This document shows, piece after piece, positions 8,031 to 37,723 of a stretch of DNA of 37,852 nt. The notes under the pieces are model-generated. The model did no database searches. It was not told the DNA's origin and saw only the letters and a program-made list of their open reading frames with translations. A program made the position numbers and the translations under genes. Each line of letters begins with the position of its first letter. Position 1 is the stretch's first letter. This stretch comes from a virus, in IMG/VR virus record IMGVR_UViG_3300042451_000939, positions 1 through 37,852 of that record. One strand, written 5' to 3'.

Positions 8031-8360
8031 ATGATAACTATTAATGAAAGTGCGTTAGTACATTTGAAAAAAGTTATGATGGAAGAGGGTATCAGTAATG
8101 ATACCCATTTTTTGCGCGTAGGGGTTAAAGGTGGTGGTTGTAGTGGTCTTTCTTATGTAATGGATTTTGATACCCAAACAACCGAAACTGATGAAGTTAT
8201 TACTCTACCTGAATTGAAGGTGGTAATCGATAGAAAATCAATGTTGTATTTGGTTGGGACTGAGTTACAGTATTCTAGTGGTTTAAATGGTAAAGGGTTC
8301 GAATGGGTGAACCCAAATGCATCCCGCACCTGTGGATGTGGAGAATCTTTTTCTCTGTAA
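8031..8360 (+). CDS. A-type iron-sulfur carrier (IscA/ErpA/HesB family)
   Basis: A-type carriers bind Fe-S clusters or iron and hand them to target enzymes. The three invariant cysteines are present: Cys37 in GGGCSGLSY and Cys101 and Cys103 in the C-terminal RTCGCGESF. MITINESALVHLKKVM is the normal family start and PNASRTCGCG the normal end, and 109 residues is the usual length. All ligands are intact, so it should be functional. It is unusual as a phage cargo gene and may support a Fe-S enzyme made during infection. Whether it is closest to IscA, ErpA or SufA cannot be decided by eye. Confidence 0.9.
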   Translation: MITINESALVHLKKVMMEEGISNDTHFLRVGVKGGGCSGLSYVMDFDTQTTETDEVITLPELKVVIDRKSMLYLVGTELQYSSGLNGKGFEWVNPNASRTCGCGESFSL

Positions 8361-10743: not shown

Positions 10744-11169
10744 ATGCAAGAAGAATTTGTTCCCTATCACCAACATCTTTTGATGAAGGTTTGGCTCACT
10801 AACCCTCCGAACAAAGTTAGTGTTTTAAATGAATGGTTTATCCAGTTAGTTCATAAAGTTAAAATGGAAGTTGTGGGTGGACCCACTAGCGTTTACGTTG
10901 ATTACCCAGGTAATGAAGGTTTAACAGGTACGGTAACTTTAGCAACATCACACGCGTCAATTCACATTTGGGATCACCAAGAACCAGCGATGGCTCAGTT
11001 TGATATTTATAGTTGTAAATGTTTCAAATTAGAAGATGTGTTAGAACATTTTGAGCCTTGGGGTTTAGTTAAAGCCGAATGGGTTATGATTGATAGAAAC
11101 GACACACCAACGGTTATTTCTGAAGGAAATTGGACCCCACAAAACGAGTATATTGAACAAAATTCATAA
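10744..11169 (+). CDS. AdoMet-decarboxylase (SpeD)-family pyruvoyl protein
   Basis: This family makes a pyruvoyl cofactor by self-cleavage before a serine. ATSHASIHIW aligns with the processing site ESHxxIHTW of prokaryotic SpeD: Ser69 would become the pyruvoyl group and His70 the processing histidine. FDIYSC (Cys91) matches the catalytic-cysteine strand VDVFTC. Two normally conserved positions differ: Glu before Ser is Thr, and the Pro-Glu after Trp is Asp-His. Some SpeD homologues, including phage-borne ones, have been reported to have switched from AdoMet to ornithine or arginine, so the substrate here is open. Length (141 aa) is normal for class 1B. Confidence 0.78.
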   Translation: MQEEFVPYHQHLLMKVWLTNPPNKVSVLNEWFIQLVHKVKMEVVGGPTSVYVDYPGNEGLTGTVTLATSHASIHIWDHQEPAMAQFDIYSCKCFKLEDVLEHFEPWGLVKAEWVMIDRNDTPTVISEGNWTPQNEYIEQNS

Positions 11170-18044: not shown

Positions 18045-18989
18045 ATGAAAGCATTCAATAGATACGATAATCGTTTTGATTCGTATGGAAATAGAAGAAC
18101 CGATGAACAACTAAATAAATTAGAATCGGAATTTAATAAACAACAAGAACAAAAAAGAAAACAAATTATGAGAAACATTTTAATCGGAGTTGGGTTATTT
18201 TTTACAGTAACCTTTTTATTTTTCTCTTGCGAGAGAATTGACGCAGGACACGTAGGTGTTAAAGTAAATCAGTATGGTAACAACAAAGGTGTTGACGATG
18301 TAGTTGCGGTTACAGGTATGGTATTCTTTAATCCACTTACAACTGCAATTTATGAGTTCCCAACGTTTATTCAACACAAGGAATATAAGAATGAAAATTC
18401 ATTCATCGTGAACAGTAAAGATGGTTCGGAGTTTAATGTGTCACCTATTATGAACTACTCAGTTCAAAGAGATAAAGTTCCAGCAATCTTCGCTAAGTAT
18501 CGTAGACCATTGGAAGATATCGAAGAGGGATTCTTAAAGACCGCAGTATACGATGCGTTTAGATTGGCGACAAACAAATACACCGCAGATGAGTTAATTA
18601 GTAACAGAGCAGTGTTCGAAATTGAGGTTCGTAGATTATTGGATGGTCAATTATTGAAAGAGGGTTTCATTATTAATCAGTTCACATCAAACTTGATTTA
18701 CCCTGAGACATTTAAGAAATCAATTGAGGCTAAGAATAACGCAGTTCAAGCGGCATTAAGAGCGGAGAATGAAGTTAAGACCGCCGAAGCTCAAGCTAAG
18801 ATTAAGGTTGCAACCGCAAATGGTAATGCCCAAGCTATGTTAACAGCAGCTAAAGCGGAGGCTGAGGCCAATAGTTTAAAACAACGTACAATCACACCAA
18901 TGTTACTACAATTGGAGTGGATCAACAAATGGGATGGTAAGTTACCAGTTTATGGTACCGCACCCCAACTGTATAAAGGTATGAAATAA
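18045..18989 (+). CDS. SPFH/prohibitin-family membrane protein
   Basis: SPFH (band 7) proteins form large membrane-anchored rings. A 40-residue polar N-terminus is followed by one transmembrane helix at about 43-62 (NILIGVGLFFTVTFLFFS) and then the SPFH domain from ERIDAGHVGVKVN. A long alanine- and glutamate-rich helix (VQAALRAENEVKTAEAQAKI) precedes the C-terminal strand. The cysteine in FFSC recalls a lipobox, but the long N-terminal tail makes lipoprotein processing doubtful. It ends at a strong terminator (19010-19042). Phage SPFH proteins are known, but their role is not settled. Confidence 0.9.
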   Translation: MKAFNRYDNRFDSYGNRRTDEQLNKLESEFNKQQEQKRKQIMRNILIGVGLFFTVTFLFFSCERIDAGHVGVKVNQYGNNKGVDDVVAVTGMVFFNPLTTAIYEFPTFIQHKEYKNENSFIVNSKDGSEFNVSPIMNYSVQRDKVPAIFAKYRRPLEDIEEGFLKTAVYDAFRLATNKYTADELISNRAVFEIEVRRLLDGQLLKEGFIINQFTSNLIYPETFKKSIEAKNNAVQAALRAENEVKTAEAQAKIKVATANGNAQAMLTAAKAEAEANSLKQRTITPMLLQLEWINKWDGKLPVYGTAPQLYKGMK

Positions 18990-23219: not shown

Positions 23220-23600
23220 ATGAAAGGAAGAATCAGTCCGTATGTTTTCCCAGGTATTAAAAAAGAGGACCTCCCCGAAAAAAGTAGTAAGTTTAAGAGA
23301 AACAAAATCAGCCCAATAGAGATTTTACGAATAGTTGGGGATTACCATTCCATTTCAGTAGAAGATATTATACGCAAATACAATAAGCGTGAGGTTTCAG
23401 ACGCTCGTCATATGTTCTGTAAGATAATGAAAACTGAGTTTAAATACAGTTTAAAGTCGATTGGCGACATCTTAAATGGTAGAGACCATACAACTATCAT
23501 TCATTCAATTAACACCTTTAATGACCGTTCTAAGTTCGAAGAAGGGTACGCCGAAGATTACGAAAAGATTGTAGAAAAAATAAATTCTAAAATAAATTAG
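23220..23600 (+). CDS. Stand-alone DnaA domain IV-like DNA-binding protein
   Basis: Domain IV of DnaA binds the DnaA box through a helix-turn-helix. Residues about 30-105 match it: SPIEILRIVGDYHSISVEDI, then SDARHMFCKIMK and SLKSIGDILNGRDHTTIIHSI. GRDHTTIIHS (88-97) is the DnaA signature motif. There is no AAA+ ATPase domain. The protein could recognise DnaA-box-like sites in the phage or host origin, acting as a competitor of host DnaA, a replication initiator adaptor or a transcription factor. It has its own class A promoter. Confidence 0.82.
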   Translation: MKGRISPYVFPGIKKEDLPEKSSKFKRNKISPIEILRIVGDYHSISVEDIIRKYNKREVSDARHMFCKIMKTEFKYSLKSIGDILNGRDHTTIIHSINTFNDRSKFEEGYAEDYEKIVEKINSKIN

Positions 23601-25354: not shown

Positions 25355-26446
25355 ATGAAACTAGAAACGATATATAAGAAAACCAAAGGTAATAAGATTC
25401 AGGAGTGGACAATTGAAGTTGAAGGTAATAAACACCGAACAATTTCAGGACAAACTGATGGATTGAAAGTTACAAGTGAGTGGACTGTATGTAAAGGTAA
25501 GAACACTGGTAAGTCTAATCAAACTACAGATGAGGAACAAGCCGTTGCTGAAGCTCACGCTAAGAGAAAGATTAAACTTGAAAGAGGTTATTTTGAAGAC
25601 ATCAATTCAATTGATGAGAAACAATACTTCGAACCAATGTTGGCAAGTAAATGGGAAGACCATAAAGATAAAGTTAGTTACCCAATCTTCTCACAACCAA
25701 AGTTAGATGGTATTCGTTGTATCGTTAAGTCTGATGGTATGTGGAGTAGAAACGGTAAACAAATATTATCCGCACCACACATCTTCGAATCAATGAAACC
25801 ATTGTTCGACGAGAATCCTAATCACATATTCGATGGTGAATTGTATTGTGATAAACTAGCCAACGACTTCAATAAGATTGTGTCCTTAGTTAAGAAAACT
25901 AAACCAACACAAGAAGATTTAGATGAGTGTTCAAGAGTAATCAAATATCATATCTACGATTTCCCATCACAAGGTGGAACGTTCTTTGAAAGGTTCCGAG
26001 CGTTATATGGTGTTAAGTTACCATCTACTTGTGAATACGTTACAACTCATCCAGTTGGTGATGAGAATAAAGTTATGGAACTTTATGAGAAGTATGTTGA
26101 GTATGGTTATGAAGGACAGATACTTCGTGTTAATTCACACTATGAAAACAAACGTAGTAAATCATTACTTAAACATAAATCATTCGTTGATGAAGAGTAT
26201 GTAATCATTGATGTGGTTGAGGGTGAAGGTAATAAGAGTGGACAGGTTGGGTATATGGTATTTGAAATAGATGGGAAGACATTTAAATCAAACGTTAAAT
26301 GTTCCTGGGAGGAAGGTGCACAACTACTGAAAGATAAACAAAACTTAATAGGTAAGAAGGCAACCATTAAATATTTCAATTTAACACCAGACGGTATACC
26401 TAGATTTCCTTACGTTATCAATATTGATAGAGAAAGCTACGAATAA
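25355..26446 (+). CDS. ATP-dependent DNA ligase with N-terminal WGR-like domain
   Basis: DNA ligases seal nicks using ATP. The adenylated lysine is in SQPKLDGIRC (motif I, Lys116). HIFDGELYCD is motif III/IIIa, GYEGQILR is motif IV, and KSLLKHKSF is the motif V region; the OB fold ends the protein. The N-terminal 80 residues (WTIEVEGNKHRTISGQ, then KGKNTGKSNQTTDEEQAVAEA) resemble a WGR-type DNA-binding module fused to the ligase. At 363 residues it is a small phage-type ligase. It probably acts in replication and in repair with the nucleases in this window. Confidence 0.9.
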   Translation: MKLETIYKKTKGNKIQEWTIEVEGNKHRTISGQTDGLKVTSEWTVCKGKNTGKSNQTTDEEQAVAEAHAKRKIKLERGYFEDINSIDEKQYFEPMLASKWEDHKDKVSYPIFSQPKLDGIRCIVKSDGMWSRNGKQILSAPHIFESMKPLFDENPNHIFDGELYCDKLANDFNKIVSLVKKTKPTQEDLDECSRVIKYHIYDFPSQGGTFFERFRALYGVKLPSTCEYVTTHPVGDENKVMELYEKYVEYGYEGQILRVNSHYENKRSKSLLKHKSFVDEEYVIIDVVEGEGNKSGQVGYMVFEIDGKTFKSNVKCSWEEGAQLLKDKQNLIGKKATIKYFNLTPDGIPRFPYVINIDRESYE

Positions 26447-34600: not shown

Positions 34601-35203
34601 ATGGAACTAACAACCAAACAATGTAAAAAATGTCAATTAGACAAACCAAGAACAGAATTTAATAAACATAACAGAGCAAAAGATGGTTTACACGTATATT
34701 GTAAACCCTGTCAGAAAGAATACAGTCACAATTACGATATGAAACGTAAAACGGCATATAACTATGATGACCCGTTTTATAAGGAGAATACTAAGGTATG
34801 TCCAAGATGTAATGTTGAGAAGATCCTATTTGAATTCACAAGAGACTTCAAGGGGACTAACGGATTAAAGGCACACTGTAATGAATGTAGGAAACCCTAC
34901 TATAAGAAACTAAAGAAGGAGGATTACAATCCGGTGGTGTATAATATTATAAACAAAGTTAATGGTGAGGTTCTATATGTAGGTGAAACTGAAACCCCAC
35001 AAATGAGAAAGGATAAACATTTCTCCACCCACGCCAAATCACCCATATCCAGAAGAATATCCAAAGGGGAGTTAGATGTGAATAGTCTATCCTTTGAGAT
35101 TATAGAACAGGTTGAAGATAAGATAACCAGACGTGAAAGGGAGACCTATTGGATAAATGAGAAGAAACCCAGGTATAATATTATGAAGGTATATAAGGAC
35201 TAA
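34601..35203 (+). CDS. GIY-YIG endonuclease with two zinc-finger-like repeats
   Basis: Two repeated zinc-binding units come first: Cys8, Cys11, Cys34 and Cys37, then Cys67, Cys70, Cys93 and Cys96. Each unit has CxxC-(x)n-EF-(x)n-CxxC spacing. A GIY-YIG domain follows: VVYNIINKVN (Tyr114) and VLYVGETE, with Arg136 (MRKDK) and a Glu near 179 in RERETYWINEKKPRYN. The YVG replaces the second half of the usual GIY-YIG signature. It is likely a free-standing homing-type endonuclease that cuts a target site in a related genome. No intron is visible around it. Confidence 0.82.
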   Translation: MELTTKQCKKCQLDKPRTEFNKHNRAKDGLHVYCKPCQKEYSHNYDMKRKTAYNYDDPFYKENTKVCPRCNVEKILFEFTRDFKGTNGLKAHCNECRKPYYKKLKKEDYNPVVYNIINKVNGEVLYVGETETPQMRKDKHFSTHAKSPISRRISKGELDVNSLSFEIIEQVEDKITRRERETYWINEKKPRYNIMKVYKD

Positions 35204-35230
35204 TCTCTATATCTTTTTTGTTGGTGTAAT

Positions 35231-35240
35231 ATATTTATTA
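35231..35240 (+). promoter_or_regulatory. Class B motif for the 195-aa tagged gene
   Basis: AATATATTTATTAAG, 19 bases before the ATG at 35259. It has the ATATTTATT form also seen at 22920. Confidence 0.5.
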
Positions 35241-35258
35241 AGAAATAGAATAACATAT

Positions 35259-35846
35259 ATGAACAAGACAATAAAATTAACACAATCCGAACTCACTGAC
35301 TTAGTGAAACGTGTAATAAAGGAGAACGTTAACTCTGTATCATCTGATGGATATGGTATGTTAAATAAGAATCAACAAGGTGATGTTACCGAAGATATGG
35401 CAGCAACATCTGGTTCAGCATCTAATAGTTTCACATCATTCTTGGTTCAACAAGGATTTAAAGATTGGTCAGGAGGAAAACCTGCAAGTTACGGAATGAA
35501 TTTCCATTATATATCTAGAAAACCTAAGACACCAGCTAATCTTAGTTGTAGTGTTGGACAAGAGACTGGACAGAAAGGAATTGGTATCGACATTAGTTTT
35601 GATGGTATAATTGAAAGAGCAGAAAGGTATAAGACAAGTCAAGAATTTATGGCTAAAAGTGCAATTCCGAAAATTGAAAAGTTAGCTGGAAAGGACTTTG
35701 ATTGGAACAACAAAACAGGTCCTGAATCAAGATTCACATTGTCCATTAAAAATGTTCCTGTAGAAAGGGCTATACAAATAATCAAATTGTATAATCAAAT
35801 TAAAATGGTTGGTCCATATTCACAGGTAAAGAAACCTATGGTATAA
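35259..35846 (+). CDS. N-terminally tagged protein (195 aa), probable packaged protein
   Basis: MNKTIKLTQSELTDLVKRVI then K-E-N is the clearest copy of the tag with the 74-aa protein. After a short linker the remainder has FTSFLVQQGFKDWSGGKPAS and a C-terminal part with strands and a helix (VERAIQIIKLYNQIK). No enzyme motif. It has a class B motif and ends before a terminator (35871-35899). A structural or internal virion role is inferred. Confidence 0.65.
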   Translation: MNKTIKLTQSELTDLVKRVIKENVNSVSSDGYGMLNKNQQGDVTEDMAATSGSASNSFTSFLVQQGFKDWSGGKPASYGMNFHYISRKPKTPANLSCSVGQETGQKGIGIDISFDGIIERAERYKTSQEFMAKSAIPKIEKLAGKDFDWNNKTGPESRFTLSIKNVPVERAIQIIKLYNQIKMVGPYSQVKKPMV

Positions 35847-35870
35847 GTAATTTTAAAATGAAAAATTAGA

Positions 35871-35899
35871 AACCCTTCACTAACCTGAAGGGTTTTTTT
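35871..35899 (+). terminator. Terminator after the 195-aa gene
   Basis: AACCCTTCA, 6-base loop, TGAAGGGTT, then a T run. The stem is perfect over 9 bp. Confidence 0.9.
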
Positions 35900-35908
35900 A
35901 TGGAATAT

Positions 35909-35939
35909 TTTGATATATCCTAAAAAATCCTTATCTTTG
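35909..35939 (+). promoter_or_regulatory. Class A promoter for the 90-aa gene
   Basis: TTTGATATATCC begins at 35909 and TATCTTTG is at 35932-35939, 19 bases after TTTG. The ATG follows at 35959. Confidence 0.78.
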
Positions 35940-35958
35940 TAGAATAAACAGTAAGAGT

Positions 35959-36231
35959 ATGAAAGAGAGAAAACCATTTAAGTTTAACAGTATGAGATTC
36001 CTTAGTAAAGAGGAATGTGATAGAATGTGGGAAAGGTTGGAGGAAGCCAAAAGACTTGGTAAGGTAATCACCTCACATAATAGGTTGGTTACCGAACACG
36101 AGTGGCTTGACCACCATATTAATGAGAATGTTCTAATAGAGAACTATGAGGAATGTGCAAGACTTCTTAAGATAAAGAACGAAACCCCTTATAGTAGTGA
36201 GAGGACTAAGGTATTATCCTTGATATCATAA
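35959..36231 (+). CDS. PFKF-tagged protein (90 aa), unknown
   Basis: MKERKPFKFNSMRFLSKEEC has the PFKF core but lacks the second Phe. The rest is helical and charged (MWERLEEAKRLGKV, then EHEWLDHHINENVL). It has its own class A promoter, unlike the other PFKFF genes, which lie in one operon. Its stop codon directly precedes the structured non-coding tract at 36232. Confidence 0.62.
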   Translation: MKERKPFKFNSMRFLSKEECDRMWERLEEAKRLGKVITSHNRLVTEHEWLDHHINENVLIENYEECARLLKIKNETPYSSERTKVLSLIS

Positions 36232-36888
36232 CAACCTGAAGGGAGGGAGACGAGAGTCTCCCGACCGATTACACTTTGTTCCATCGGGTCTTCTACACCG
36301 TTCTAGTATCCGTTTACGGTTACAAAATTTACCCCTAATTTATTCCCGTTTTTATACCCTAAAACAGTACTTTTTTTAGTGACAAATTGTCGGGATCTTT
36401 TTATATACACAAATATGTGACTATATGTCCGGTTTTTGGGTTCTAGTATATACCACCCACATTTTACCACTTCTTAACACATCTGTGTTTTCTCGGTAGG
36501 AACTGACCCATTCGTGAATCGTGATCTGTTTTTTATATTTTTTTATAAAGGGTATACTTTTATACATACATATATACAGATTATACCCGTTCATATAATG
36601 ATATAACCGTTATTCCGGTCGGGGACTCTGTCGAGATCCCCTCCCTTCATCCCGAATTATAATATCTCTAATGTAATACTTCATTCTTTGTGAATCTCAT
36701 AATCAAACCACGTAGTTCCATTATGAATCTTCTAAAGAAACCTACGGTTTATTACAAATATTATAATTAAGGGATGTCATACACCAGGTTCTAGTACTTC
36801 CCCTGAAGGGGTCCGAAGGACCCCGCCAAGTAATACACCAGTATACGGGATGAAGGGCCGACCGAAGGGAGGCCCGTAATGGAAATGG

Positions 36889-36901
36889 GCCAAACATTAT
36901 T
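36889..36901. repeat. 13-bp repeat copy 1, GCCAAACATTATT
   Basis: Part of a 15-bp inverted pair (GGGCCAAACATTATT) with the copy at 36940-36954. It is a direct repeat of the copy at 37711-37723. Confidence 0.8.
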
Positions 36902-36939
36902 TACAAAAAATTAGATGTAACAACATCGATTGTAATACG

Positions 36940-36952
36940 AATAATGTTTGGC
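36940..36952. repeat. 13-bp repeat copy 2 (inverted), AATAATGTTTGGC
   Basis: Reverse complement of GCCAAACATTATT. With the copy at 37711-37723 it brackets one minus-strand gene as inverted ends. It may also form the downstream hairpin of that gene. Confidence 0.8.
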
Positions 36953-36969
36953 CCCGAACCCTACTCCAA

Positions 36970-37680
36970 TTAAATGAAGTTAGAATCTTCTATACCAAGG
37001 TTTTTGAATTTCTCTCTAAGGAAGTTTCTGAACTCCACAGACTGTGGTCCAGTTTCTATTTGTCCTGTAATGGATAGTTTAAAATCAGGACTAACAACCC
37101 CACCACCTACGGTGAAGTTCTTATCGTTTGAATTAACAACTATCTCAGGGTTATCTTTAAGTCTATATGGTTCACCTTCGAACTTACCCCTTTGTAATAC
37201 CTTAAAGACGGACTGTAGTCTTTTGATTTTGACCGCTACGTGTTTGTCATAGTCCTCATTAAAGTCAGGTAGATGATCTGGGTCGATATTACTATAGTGT
37301 CCATCTACTACTTCTTTTATAGTTGGGGTGTCACCGATGAGGTCCCTCTTCAGGTTGTGTGGGATGTAGTCGAATAGATCAATCTTATTATGGCCAAACA
37401 TAATGTATATCCTGGAGACACTGAAGGTGATGTTATCGGTCGGGTCCACACCGTTGTCATACAAGTACTGGGCTGCGGTCTTCATCATCCCGTCGATTAG
37501 ATCCACAGATATCTGAGGTGAATCCACCTTTATGGTGCCCAGTATTACACCGTGCATATTAGGACCATCCTGTTCCCAGGTAATAGTCAGGTGGAACCGA
37601 TTCCCGTCATACACGGTTAGATTCTCAAGACGTTTCATTAACATCACATTCTCCTCAACAAGGTACAATAGTTTCTTCAT
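36970..37680 (-). CDS. Probable late protein (236 aa) with tag-like N-terminus, flanked by inverted repeats
   Basis: The product begins MKKLLYLVEENVMLMKRLEN, whose LVE matches the loose (I/L/V)xE ending of the tag family, though the fit is weaker than in the other six. It is soluble, strand-rich and has no recognised motif (for example FHLTITWEQDGPNMHGVILG and VSRIYIMFGHNKIDLF). Its class B motif is at 37687-37694. Codons are more GC-rich (CTG, GTC, ACC, GAC) than in the rest of the window. It is bracketed by 13-bp inverted repeats at 36940-36952 and 37711-37723. The origin may be recent transfer, but function is not assigned. Confidence 0.68.
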   Translation of the reverse strand: MKKLLYLVEENVMLMKRLENLTVYDGNRFHLTITWEQDGPNMHGVILGTIKVDSPQISVDLIDGMMKTAAQYLYDNGVDPTDNITFSVSRIYIMFGHNKIDLFDYIPHNLKRDLIGDTPTIKEVVDGHYSNIDPDHLPDFNEDYDKHVAVKIKRLQSVFKVLQRGKFEGEPYRLKDNPEIVVNSNDKNFTVGGGVVSPDFKLSITGQIETGPQSVEFRNFLREKFKNLGIEDSNFI

Positions 37681-37710: not shown

Positions 37711-37723
37711 GCCAAACATTATT
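37711..37723. repeat. 13-bp repeat copy 3, GCCAAACATTATT
   Basis: Same orientation as the copy at 36889 and inverted to the copy at 36940. It is upstream of the 236-aa gene. Confidence 0.8.

Follow-up and report, generated by a model that had tools for sequence, protein, structure and literature searches.

The window, as the whole stretch of 37,852 bases analysed here is called, is a fragment from a virus record in IMG/VR. Two of its genes converge on a long non-coding tract (Table 1): a 90-aa ORF on the plus strand that ends at 36231 and, on the minus strand at 36970–37680, a 236-aa ORF termed p236, which matched neither a Pfam nor a PHROG family and whose predicted structure was not confident (pLDDT 52). 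An earlier note on this DNA had described the 738 bases between these genes as gene-free, and this was borne out, as no ORF of at least 60 aa lies within 36232–36969 and the longest open frames inside are of 51–57 aa. Three ORFs that adjoin the tract at 34601–36231, among them a GIY-YIG endonuclease (34601–35203), are without counterpart in the three closest contigs (G001, G002 and G003), which gives this region the look of a recent insertion or of a place where genes turn over. Elsewhere in the window, host-like genes were noted for an iron-sulphur carrier (8031–8360), S-adenosylmethionine decarboxylase (10744–11169), an SPFH/band-7 protein (18045–18989) and an ATP-dependent DNA ligase (25355–26446).

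Table 1. Positions of the features of the non-coding tract and of one distant gene, in window coordinates.
Feature	Position	Strand	Remarks
Whole non-coding tract	36232–36969		Three near relatives and more distant ones have homologous tracts
Hairpin element E1	36237–36267	+	TGAAGGGAGG and stem-loop 36245–36262, loop C(GAGA)G, then GACCG
Conserved core	36315–36630		Gap-free in the four closest genomes, 76% identical columns
GACA-n3-5-TGTC dyad	36381–36391		Shared by all nine cores aligned; not seen in G046
Flanking motif CCCAAAAACCGG	36429–36440	−	Orientation constant whichever way the array runs
Array of three 10-bp repeats, CCCACATTTT / ACCACTTCTT / AACACATCTG	36456–36485	+	Proposed protein-binding sites
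Flanking motif AATGGGTCAGTTCC, consensus AAGGGWCAATCC	36499–36512	−	Orientation constant in all lineages
AT-rich stretch	36534–36583		Least stable 50 bp of the tract; candidate unwinding region
Hairpin element E2, inverted copy	36617–36650	−	Stem-loop 36621–36641, loop C(GACA)G
Long imperfect hairpin, about 114 nt	36655–36768		Also in G002 and G003; missing in G001
Hairpin element E4	36802–36826	+	Stem-loop 36808–36824, loop C(GAA)G; loop C(GACA)G in G001/G002
Element E3	36847–36878	+	Stem GGGCC/GGCCC 36855–36875; GGTCC/GGACC in G001/G002
Long hairpin of two facing copies of AATAATGTTTGGC	36887–36954		Motif in many late-gene spacers of relatives
DnaA domain IV-like protein, signature GRDHTTI	23220–23600	+	Pfam PF08299, E 1.5e-16; outside the tract

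A search with the 236-aa protein identified three contigs, G001 (83 kb) and G002 and G003 (52 kb each), all of which carried a homologous tract and a version of p236 that was 90–93% identical to that of the window. A wider set of 80 contigs of related, often very large phages was retrieved with a conserved 217-aa protein of the window. The same junction was located by blast/tblastn in G014, G020/G007/G011, G006 (310 kb) and G046, while in L240 and L251 it was found by means of an exact 21-base block that gave no hit in bacterial genomes. Homologous tracts at the same syntenic convergent junction were thus present in the window, G001–G003, G014/L240, the G011/G020 group, L251, G006 and G046, on IMG/VR phage contigs that reach 310 kb. 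The gene order shared by the contigs examined was a small gene of 60–91 aa, the p236 equivalent, the tract and then genes of the opposite strand; p236 equivalents in some distant contigs were of low sequence similarity, and in distant tracts a terminator-like hairpin followed p236 and the core came after that. Three other matches were rejected as homologues, that in L022, obtained with an 18-base core pattern, being a chance match inside an unrelated 582-aa ORF and the blast hits to the tract in G021 and G050 being inside genes. Named phage records gave only chance hits of about 40 nt when compared with the tract by blastn.

The conserved core of the tract was free of codon-position bias, and its inner part could be aligned with that of distant relatives. 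A 57-aa frame at 36421–36594 (−) was rejected as a gene: its counterpart in G001 and G002 has 72 aa but is shortened in the window, a stop interrupts the G003 version, and substitutions were not concentrated at third codon positions. Other short frames of the core were likewise broken by stops, with changes that did not fall at third positions. The tract is without a convincing gene.

At the centre of interest is an array of repeats in which CAC recurs every 10 bp exactly within a CCAC core. The number of repeats across genomes was three, and up to four or five, always in 10-bp phase and with one array per genome. When a profile was built with the clade in question excluded, no position scored above the tract array in any of six genomes, including those of 288 and 310 kb, with 75,650 to 621,328 positions ranked per genome. 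In the two large genomes the second-best hit was again this array, displaced by a single repeat, and the best independent site after it was far weaker; with the array first in the ranking and its own shifted copy as runner-up, the array therefore occurs once per genome. No match to the array profile was found in Cellulophaga phage phi17:2, Tenacibaculum phage PTm1, Prevotella phage Lak-C1 or MT835470. In a single spacer of the 254-kb contig L306 (G035), at 1710–1910, two opposed copies of CCACTTTTTACCAC were noted about 160 bp apart.

The orientation of the array differed between lineages. Repeats were on the strand opposite to p236 in the window, G001–G003 and L250 (G006) and on the p236 strand in L237, L240, L243, L251 and G046, while the sequences that flank the inverted array, AAGGGWCAATCC on one side and CCCAAA-n2-CCGG on the other, held their orientation. 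Blocks of the window or G001 compared with those of other clades matched at 19–27 of 35 positions when inverted and at 10–13 of 29–35 as they stand; for L250 the corresponding values were 18–24 and 8–12. The inverted match exceeded nearly all shuffled controls for every pair (p at most 0.022). It is chiefly on account of this in-place inversion that a DNA element is preferred, because a folded RNA would be broken by the turning of a 35-nt segment whereas sites at which a protein binds duplex DNA need not be.

Beside the array lies AT-rich DNA, and in the window contig just 0.4% of windows were less stable than the stretch listed in Table 1. In five of six genomes the least stable 50 bp next to the array ranked among the lowest 0.8% genome-wide; the exception was G006, in which there was no unusually unstable stretch (7% of windows less stable). 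The tracts did not generally hold a cluster of DnaA boxes of the form TTATNCACA, as most had no such box and G003 had one; two perfect boxes (TTATCCACA) were present in the array spacer of G057 and two of the form TTATGCACA in G046. GC skew tracked gene strand, and cumulative skew peaked at the tract, where the gene blocks converge. Once the effect of gene strand had been removed, skew in G011 reached an extreme at the tract (a maximum, as at a terminus), and in G006 it did not. GC skew cannot settle the question of an origin, since it follows gene strand and since the residuals of G006 and G011 disagree. In G011, a 5472-aa open frame at 107949–124367, probably a repetitive tail or adhesin gene, was of extreme GC skew (about −0.73).

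The long-range pairings on which the earlier note had based its proposal of an RNA with mutually exclusive states are present in the window. Inverted repeats exceeded chance, as three exact words of at least 11 nt that were at least 100 nt apart were seen against 0.09 expected from dinucleotide shuffles, none of 300 of which reached this count. The pairings of 36643–36654 with 36846–36857 (12 bp) and of 36864–36872 with 36640–36648 (9 bases) are exact; 11 or 12 of the 12 pairs of the former were kept in the closest relatives, in sequence so nearly invariant that the pairing is uninformative. An 11-bp helix between 36237–36247 and 36639–36649 is also exact in the window but retained only 8 or 9 of its 11 pairs in the closest relatives, with no compensatory change in any of the three. 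Similarly, both of the overlapping hairpins at 36800–36824 (CCCC-TGAA-GGGG and GGGGTCC-GAA-GGACCCC) exist in the sequence, but the first was not kept in G003 or G001. The 11-, 12- and 9-bp pairings arise because element E2 is inverted relative to E1, E3 and E4, so that its arm pairs with each of them. What had appeared as mutually exclusive helices are thus copies of one hairpin element in opposite orientations, which have in common TGAAGGG(AGG), a stem-loop rich in GC and a short end rich in C.

Homologous tracts of distant contigs were without E hairpins. Within the clade of the window, stems of E2, E3 and E4 were preserved in G001–G003 through two-sided changes, for example GGGCC/GGCCC versus GGTCC/GGACC in E3 and GGGGTCC/GGACCCC versus GGGGGATC/GATCCCCC in E4, while E1, which starts a few bases past a stop codon, was represented in each near relative by a stem-loop of differing sequence. 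Read in the orientation of the element, 15 of 16 copies had loops of the form C(GNA)G or C(GNNA)G, the variants being C(GAA)G, C(GGA)G, C(GAGA)G and C(GACA)G; the inner loop of E3 was C(GAA)G or C(GGA)G. Loops of these types on G-C stems form DNA mini-hairpins that are exceptionally stable, according to the group that described them (PMC4686876). Unlike those mini-hairpins, the E hairpins are natural and repeated and bracket a core, and they may form as DNA or as RNA. Given the covariation of their stems and the nature of their loops, single-stranded hairpins are therefore probably used, and hairpins of this kind, in DNA or RNA, are probably under selection in the outer tract of the window clade, where a transcript from E1–E4 could also be made. 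No match to the exact 26-base hairpin pattern was found in viral contigs. The hairpin at 36655–36768 is absent from G001 as though it were an optional or mobile insert. The 13-bp motif AATAATGTTTGGC, found at 36889–36901, 36940–36952 and 37711–37723 and at many places in L002–L004, often stood shortly before a start codon and often in facing pairs in spacers of the late-gene blocks of relatives, and is possibly a promoter or regulator site.

A different result was obtained for the core. Folding of the whole tract was better than that of shuffled sequences on both strands (z = −4.9 plus, −7.9 minus; 20 shuffles each) and the minus strand of the core gave z = −2.7, yet the consensus fold of nine homologous cores amounted to only −3 to −7 kcal/mol versus a single-sequence mean of about −36 (SCI 0.09–0.21). 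Column shuffles of the alignment gave still lower SCI values, and the excess over them was due to a few scattered pairs and two tiny hairpins, GACA-n-TGTC and GGG-n-CCC. Compensatory change was confined to the outer hairpins of the window clade. Rfam hits to the tract at E 10 were at chance level; GOLLD and ROOL gave no match at gathering level in the window and did not appear at E up to 10 for 35850–37000. With no common fold in the core and a repeat block inverted between lineages, the large regulatory or catalytic RNA with alternative states proposed in the earlier note was not upheld, and it was the alternative given there, a DNA element such as an origin, that the evidence favoured.

Two candidates for a protein that would bind the array were noted. 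The small gene of the shared gene order, two genes from the tract in the tract-bearing contigs examined, encodes a protein of 60–91 aa with a lysine-rich tail and a conserved sequence, IYxDGxSYRVRV..G...S.NFSSK.KA..FR..L. With profile thresholds of E up to 1.2e-3 for the array and E up to 0.003 for the protein, the array was detected in 10 of 50 related contigs and the protein in 8 of these 10 but in none of the other 40, a count in which events are not independent, the contigs being mutually related and many of them fragments. The protein was not detected in the array-bearing contigs G029 and G035. Array calls in two of the 10 contigs, G057 and G035, were weak by E-value, both of them in gene-free stretches of 510–830 nt with phased repeats. 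No Pfam family was found for the small protein, and its sole hit in genome_contigs was to a stretch of a 540-aa repeat protein from a Methanobrevibacter bin. AlphaFold predicted a confident beta-beta-beta-alpha fold (pLDDT 82.5). Foldseek gave no significant match to this model (best E 0.74), and structural matches were weak (Z 2.2–5.6), namely to CedA, to AP2 domains of plants and Plasmodium and to the arm-binding domains of lambda, HPI and P4 integrases (Z 2.2–5.2 for AP2 and arm domains; 3.3 for 1kjk, 2.2 for 2wcc, 4.1 for 3jtz and 4.4 for 3rmp). The small AP2/integrase-arm-like protein is the best candidate binder. The second candidate is the DnaA domain IV-like protein, the gene for which, with the recognition signature intact, was also present in G001–G003, G005, G006 and G046; the protein was detected in eight other contigs at E below 1e-13. 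The gene was not found in the 288-kb G011, though the array is there.

These results are best read as showing a control site in DNA, conserved among large lake phages of the Bacteroidetes type, rather than a large folded RNA gene. More specifically, it would be a cis-acting double-stranded DNA element, bound by protein at the phased repeats and most likely a replication origin, although we place this assignment, and origin function as such, a little short of an even chance. The strongest rival, somewhat unlikely in our estimate, is a protein-bound site of the same anatomy with another job, such as a replication terminus or fork barrier, a centromere-like partition site or a packaging or recombination site. 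Convergence of the gene blocks at the peak of cumulative skew, the corrected skew maximum of G011 and the opposed arrays of G035 are all consistent with such a site, and repeats in 10-bp phase under a protein of arm- or AP2-like fold would fit assemblies of this sort as well; against it are the lack of a comparable skew signal in G006 and the AT-rich stretch, which suits an origin better, and a non-exhaustive search next to the tract revealed neither an integrase gene nor a partition gene.

That a structured non-coding RNA of 300–700 nt is transcribed from the tract is improbable. Strong single-sequence folding, covarying E2–E4 stems and a long conserved non-coding block that is indel-free in four near genomes would be expected of such an RNA, but the core has almost no consensus fold, its repeat block has been inverted in place, the 11-bp helix is unconserved and the hairpins are missing from distant homologues. 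Moreover, there was no Rfam match and no conserved promoter of the Bacteroidetes type in the tract, and the terminator-like hairpin of distant relatives closes the upstream gene ahead of the core. Least probable of all is a mere spacer in which hairpins and AT-rich DNA end convergent transcripts from both sides. Converging genes, the position of E1 just past a stop codon and the terminator-like hairpins of distant homologues agree with convergent termination, which, however, leaves unexplained why about ten lineages have kept a unique array in 10-bp phase, as well as the inversion of that array, the flanking motifs and the association with the small protein.

If the tract is an origin, the spacer between the two converging gene blocks would be the binding site, with protein bound to three 10-bp repeats on one face of the helix beside the AT-rich stretch. 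The bound protein would then bend or open the AT-rich DNA, at which strands would separate, and load the replication machinery so that replication of phage DNA begins; in some lineages it may be assisted by host DnaA or by the DnaA domain IV-like protein of the phage. The four hairpins that bracket the core in the window clade would perhaps serve as single-stranded DNA priming hairpins or as transcript ends. An initiation system of large lake Bacteroidetes phages that combines all of these parts, i.e., a free-standing AP2/arm-like protein, an invertible array, an AT-rich opening and, in one clade, mini-hairpins for priming or landing, is unlikely to be correct in every part and is offered tentatively.

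Repeat arrays beside AT-rich DNA are of a known kind. Like iteron-type origins of plasmids and lambda-type phages and the DnaA-box clusters of bacterial oriC, the tract combines direct repeats at the spacing of a helical turn, an AT-rich neighbour and a nearby gene for a putative initiator-like DNA-binding protein. It differs from them in its 10-bp units with a CCAC core, in having only three copies of them, in the invertibility of the whole array and in that few tract members contain true DnaA boxes. The sites in the P' arm bound by lambda integrase are adjacent direct repeats of about 10 bp, and the tract and its small protein share with this system both the form of the repeats, a lead rather than a test, and a beta-beta-beta-alpha domain, which in the small protein is a predicted one. 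Unlike the integrase, however, the small protein is free-standing, with a lysine-rich tail and without a recombinase part, the similarity of fold is weak, and neither an integrase nor an attachment site was seen next to the tract. With GOLLD and ROOL, the large ornate phage RNAs (PMC12286853), the tract has in common several hundred non-coding phage bases, but unlike them it has no Rfam match, no conserved core fold and an inverted repeat block. Freshwater phages of up to 331 kb that carry bS21 and have predicted Bacteroidetes hosts (PMC9723584) may overlap with the tract-bearing group; words for origin, intergenic or non-coding sequence are absent from the text of that paper. Literature searches turned up no account of a site like this; what look to be new are the 10-bp CCAC array, its in-place inversion and the association with the small protein.

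Hairpin repeats in opposite orientations can thus look, in raw sequence, like a large switching RNA. For most large metagenomic phages the replication origins are, to our knowledge, not known, and they cannot be deduced from GC skew where, as in these phages, it follows gene strand. A short, unique and phased array, recognisable by profile in distant members, provides a concrete candidate site together with a concrete candidate binder, and the two could be tested with synthetic DNA and purified protein, with no need of a cultured phage.
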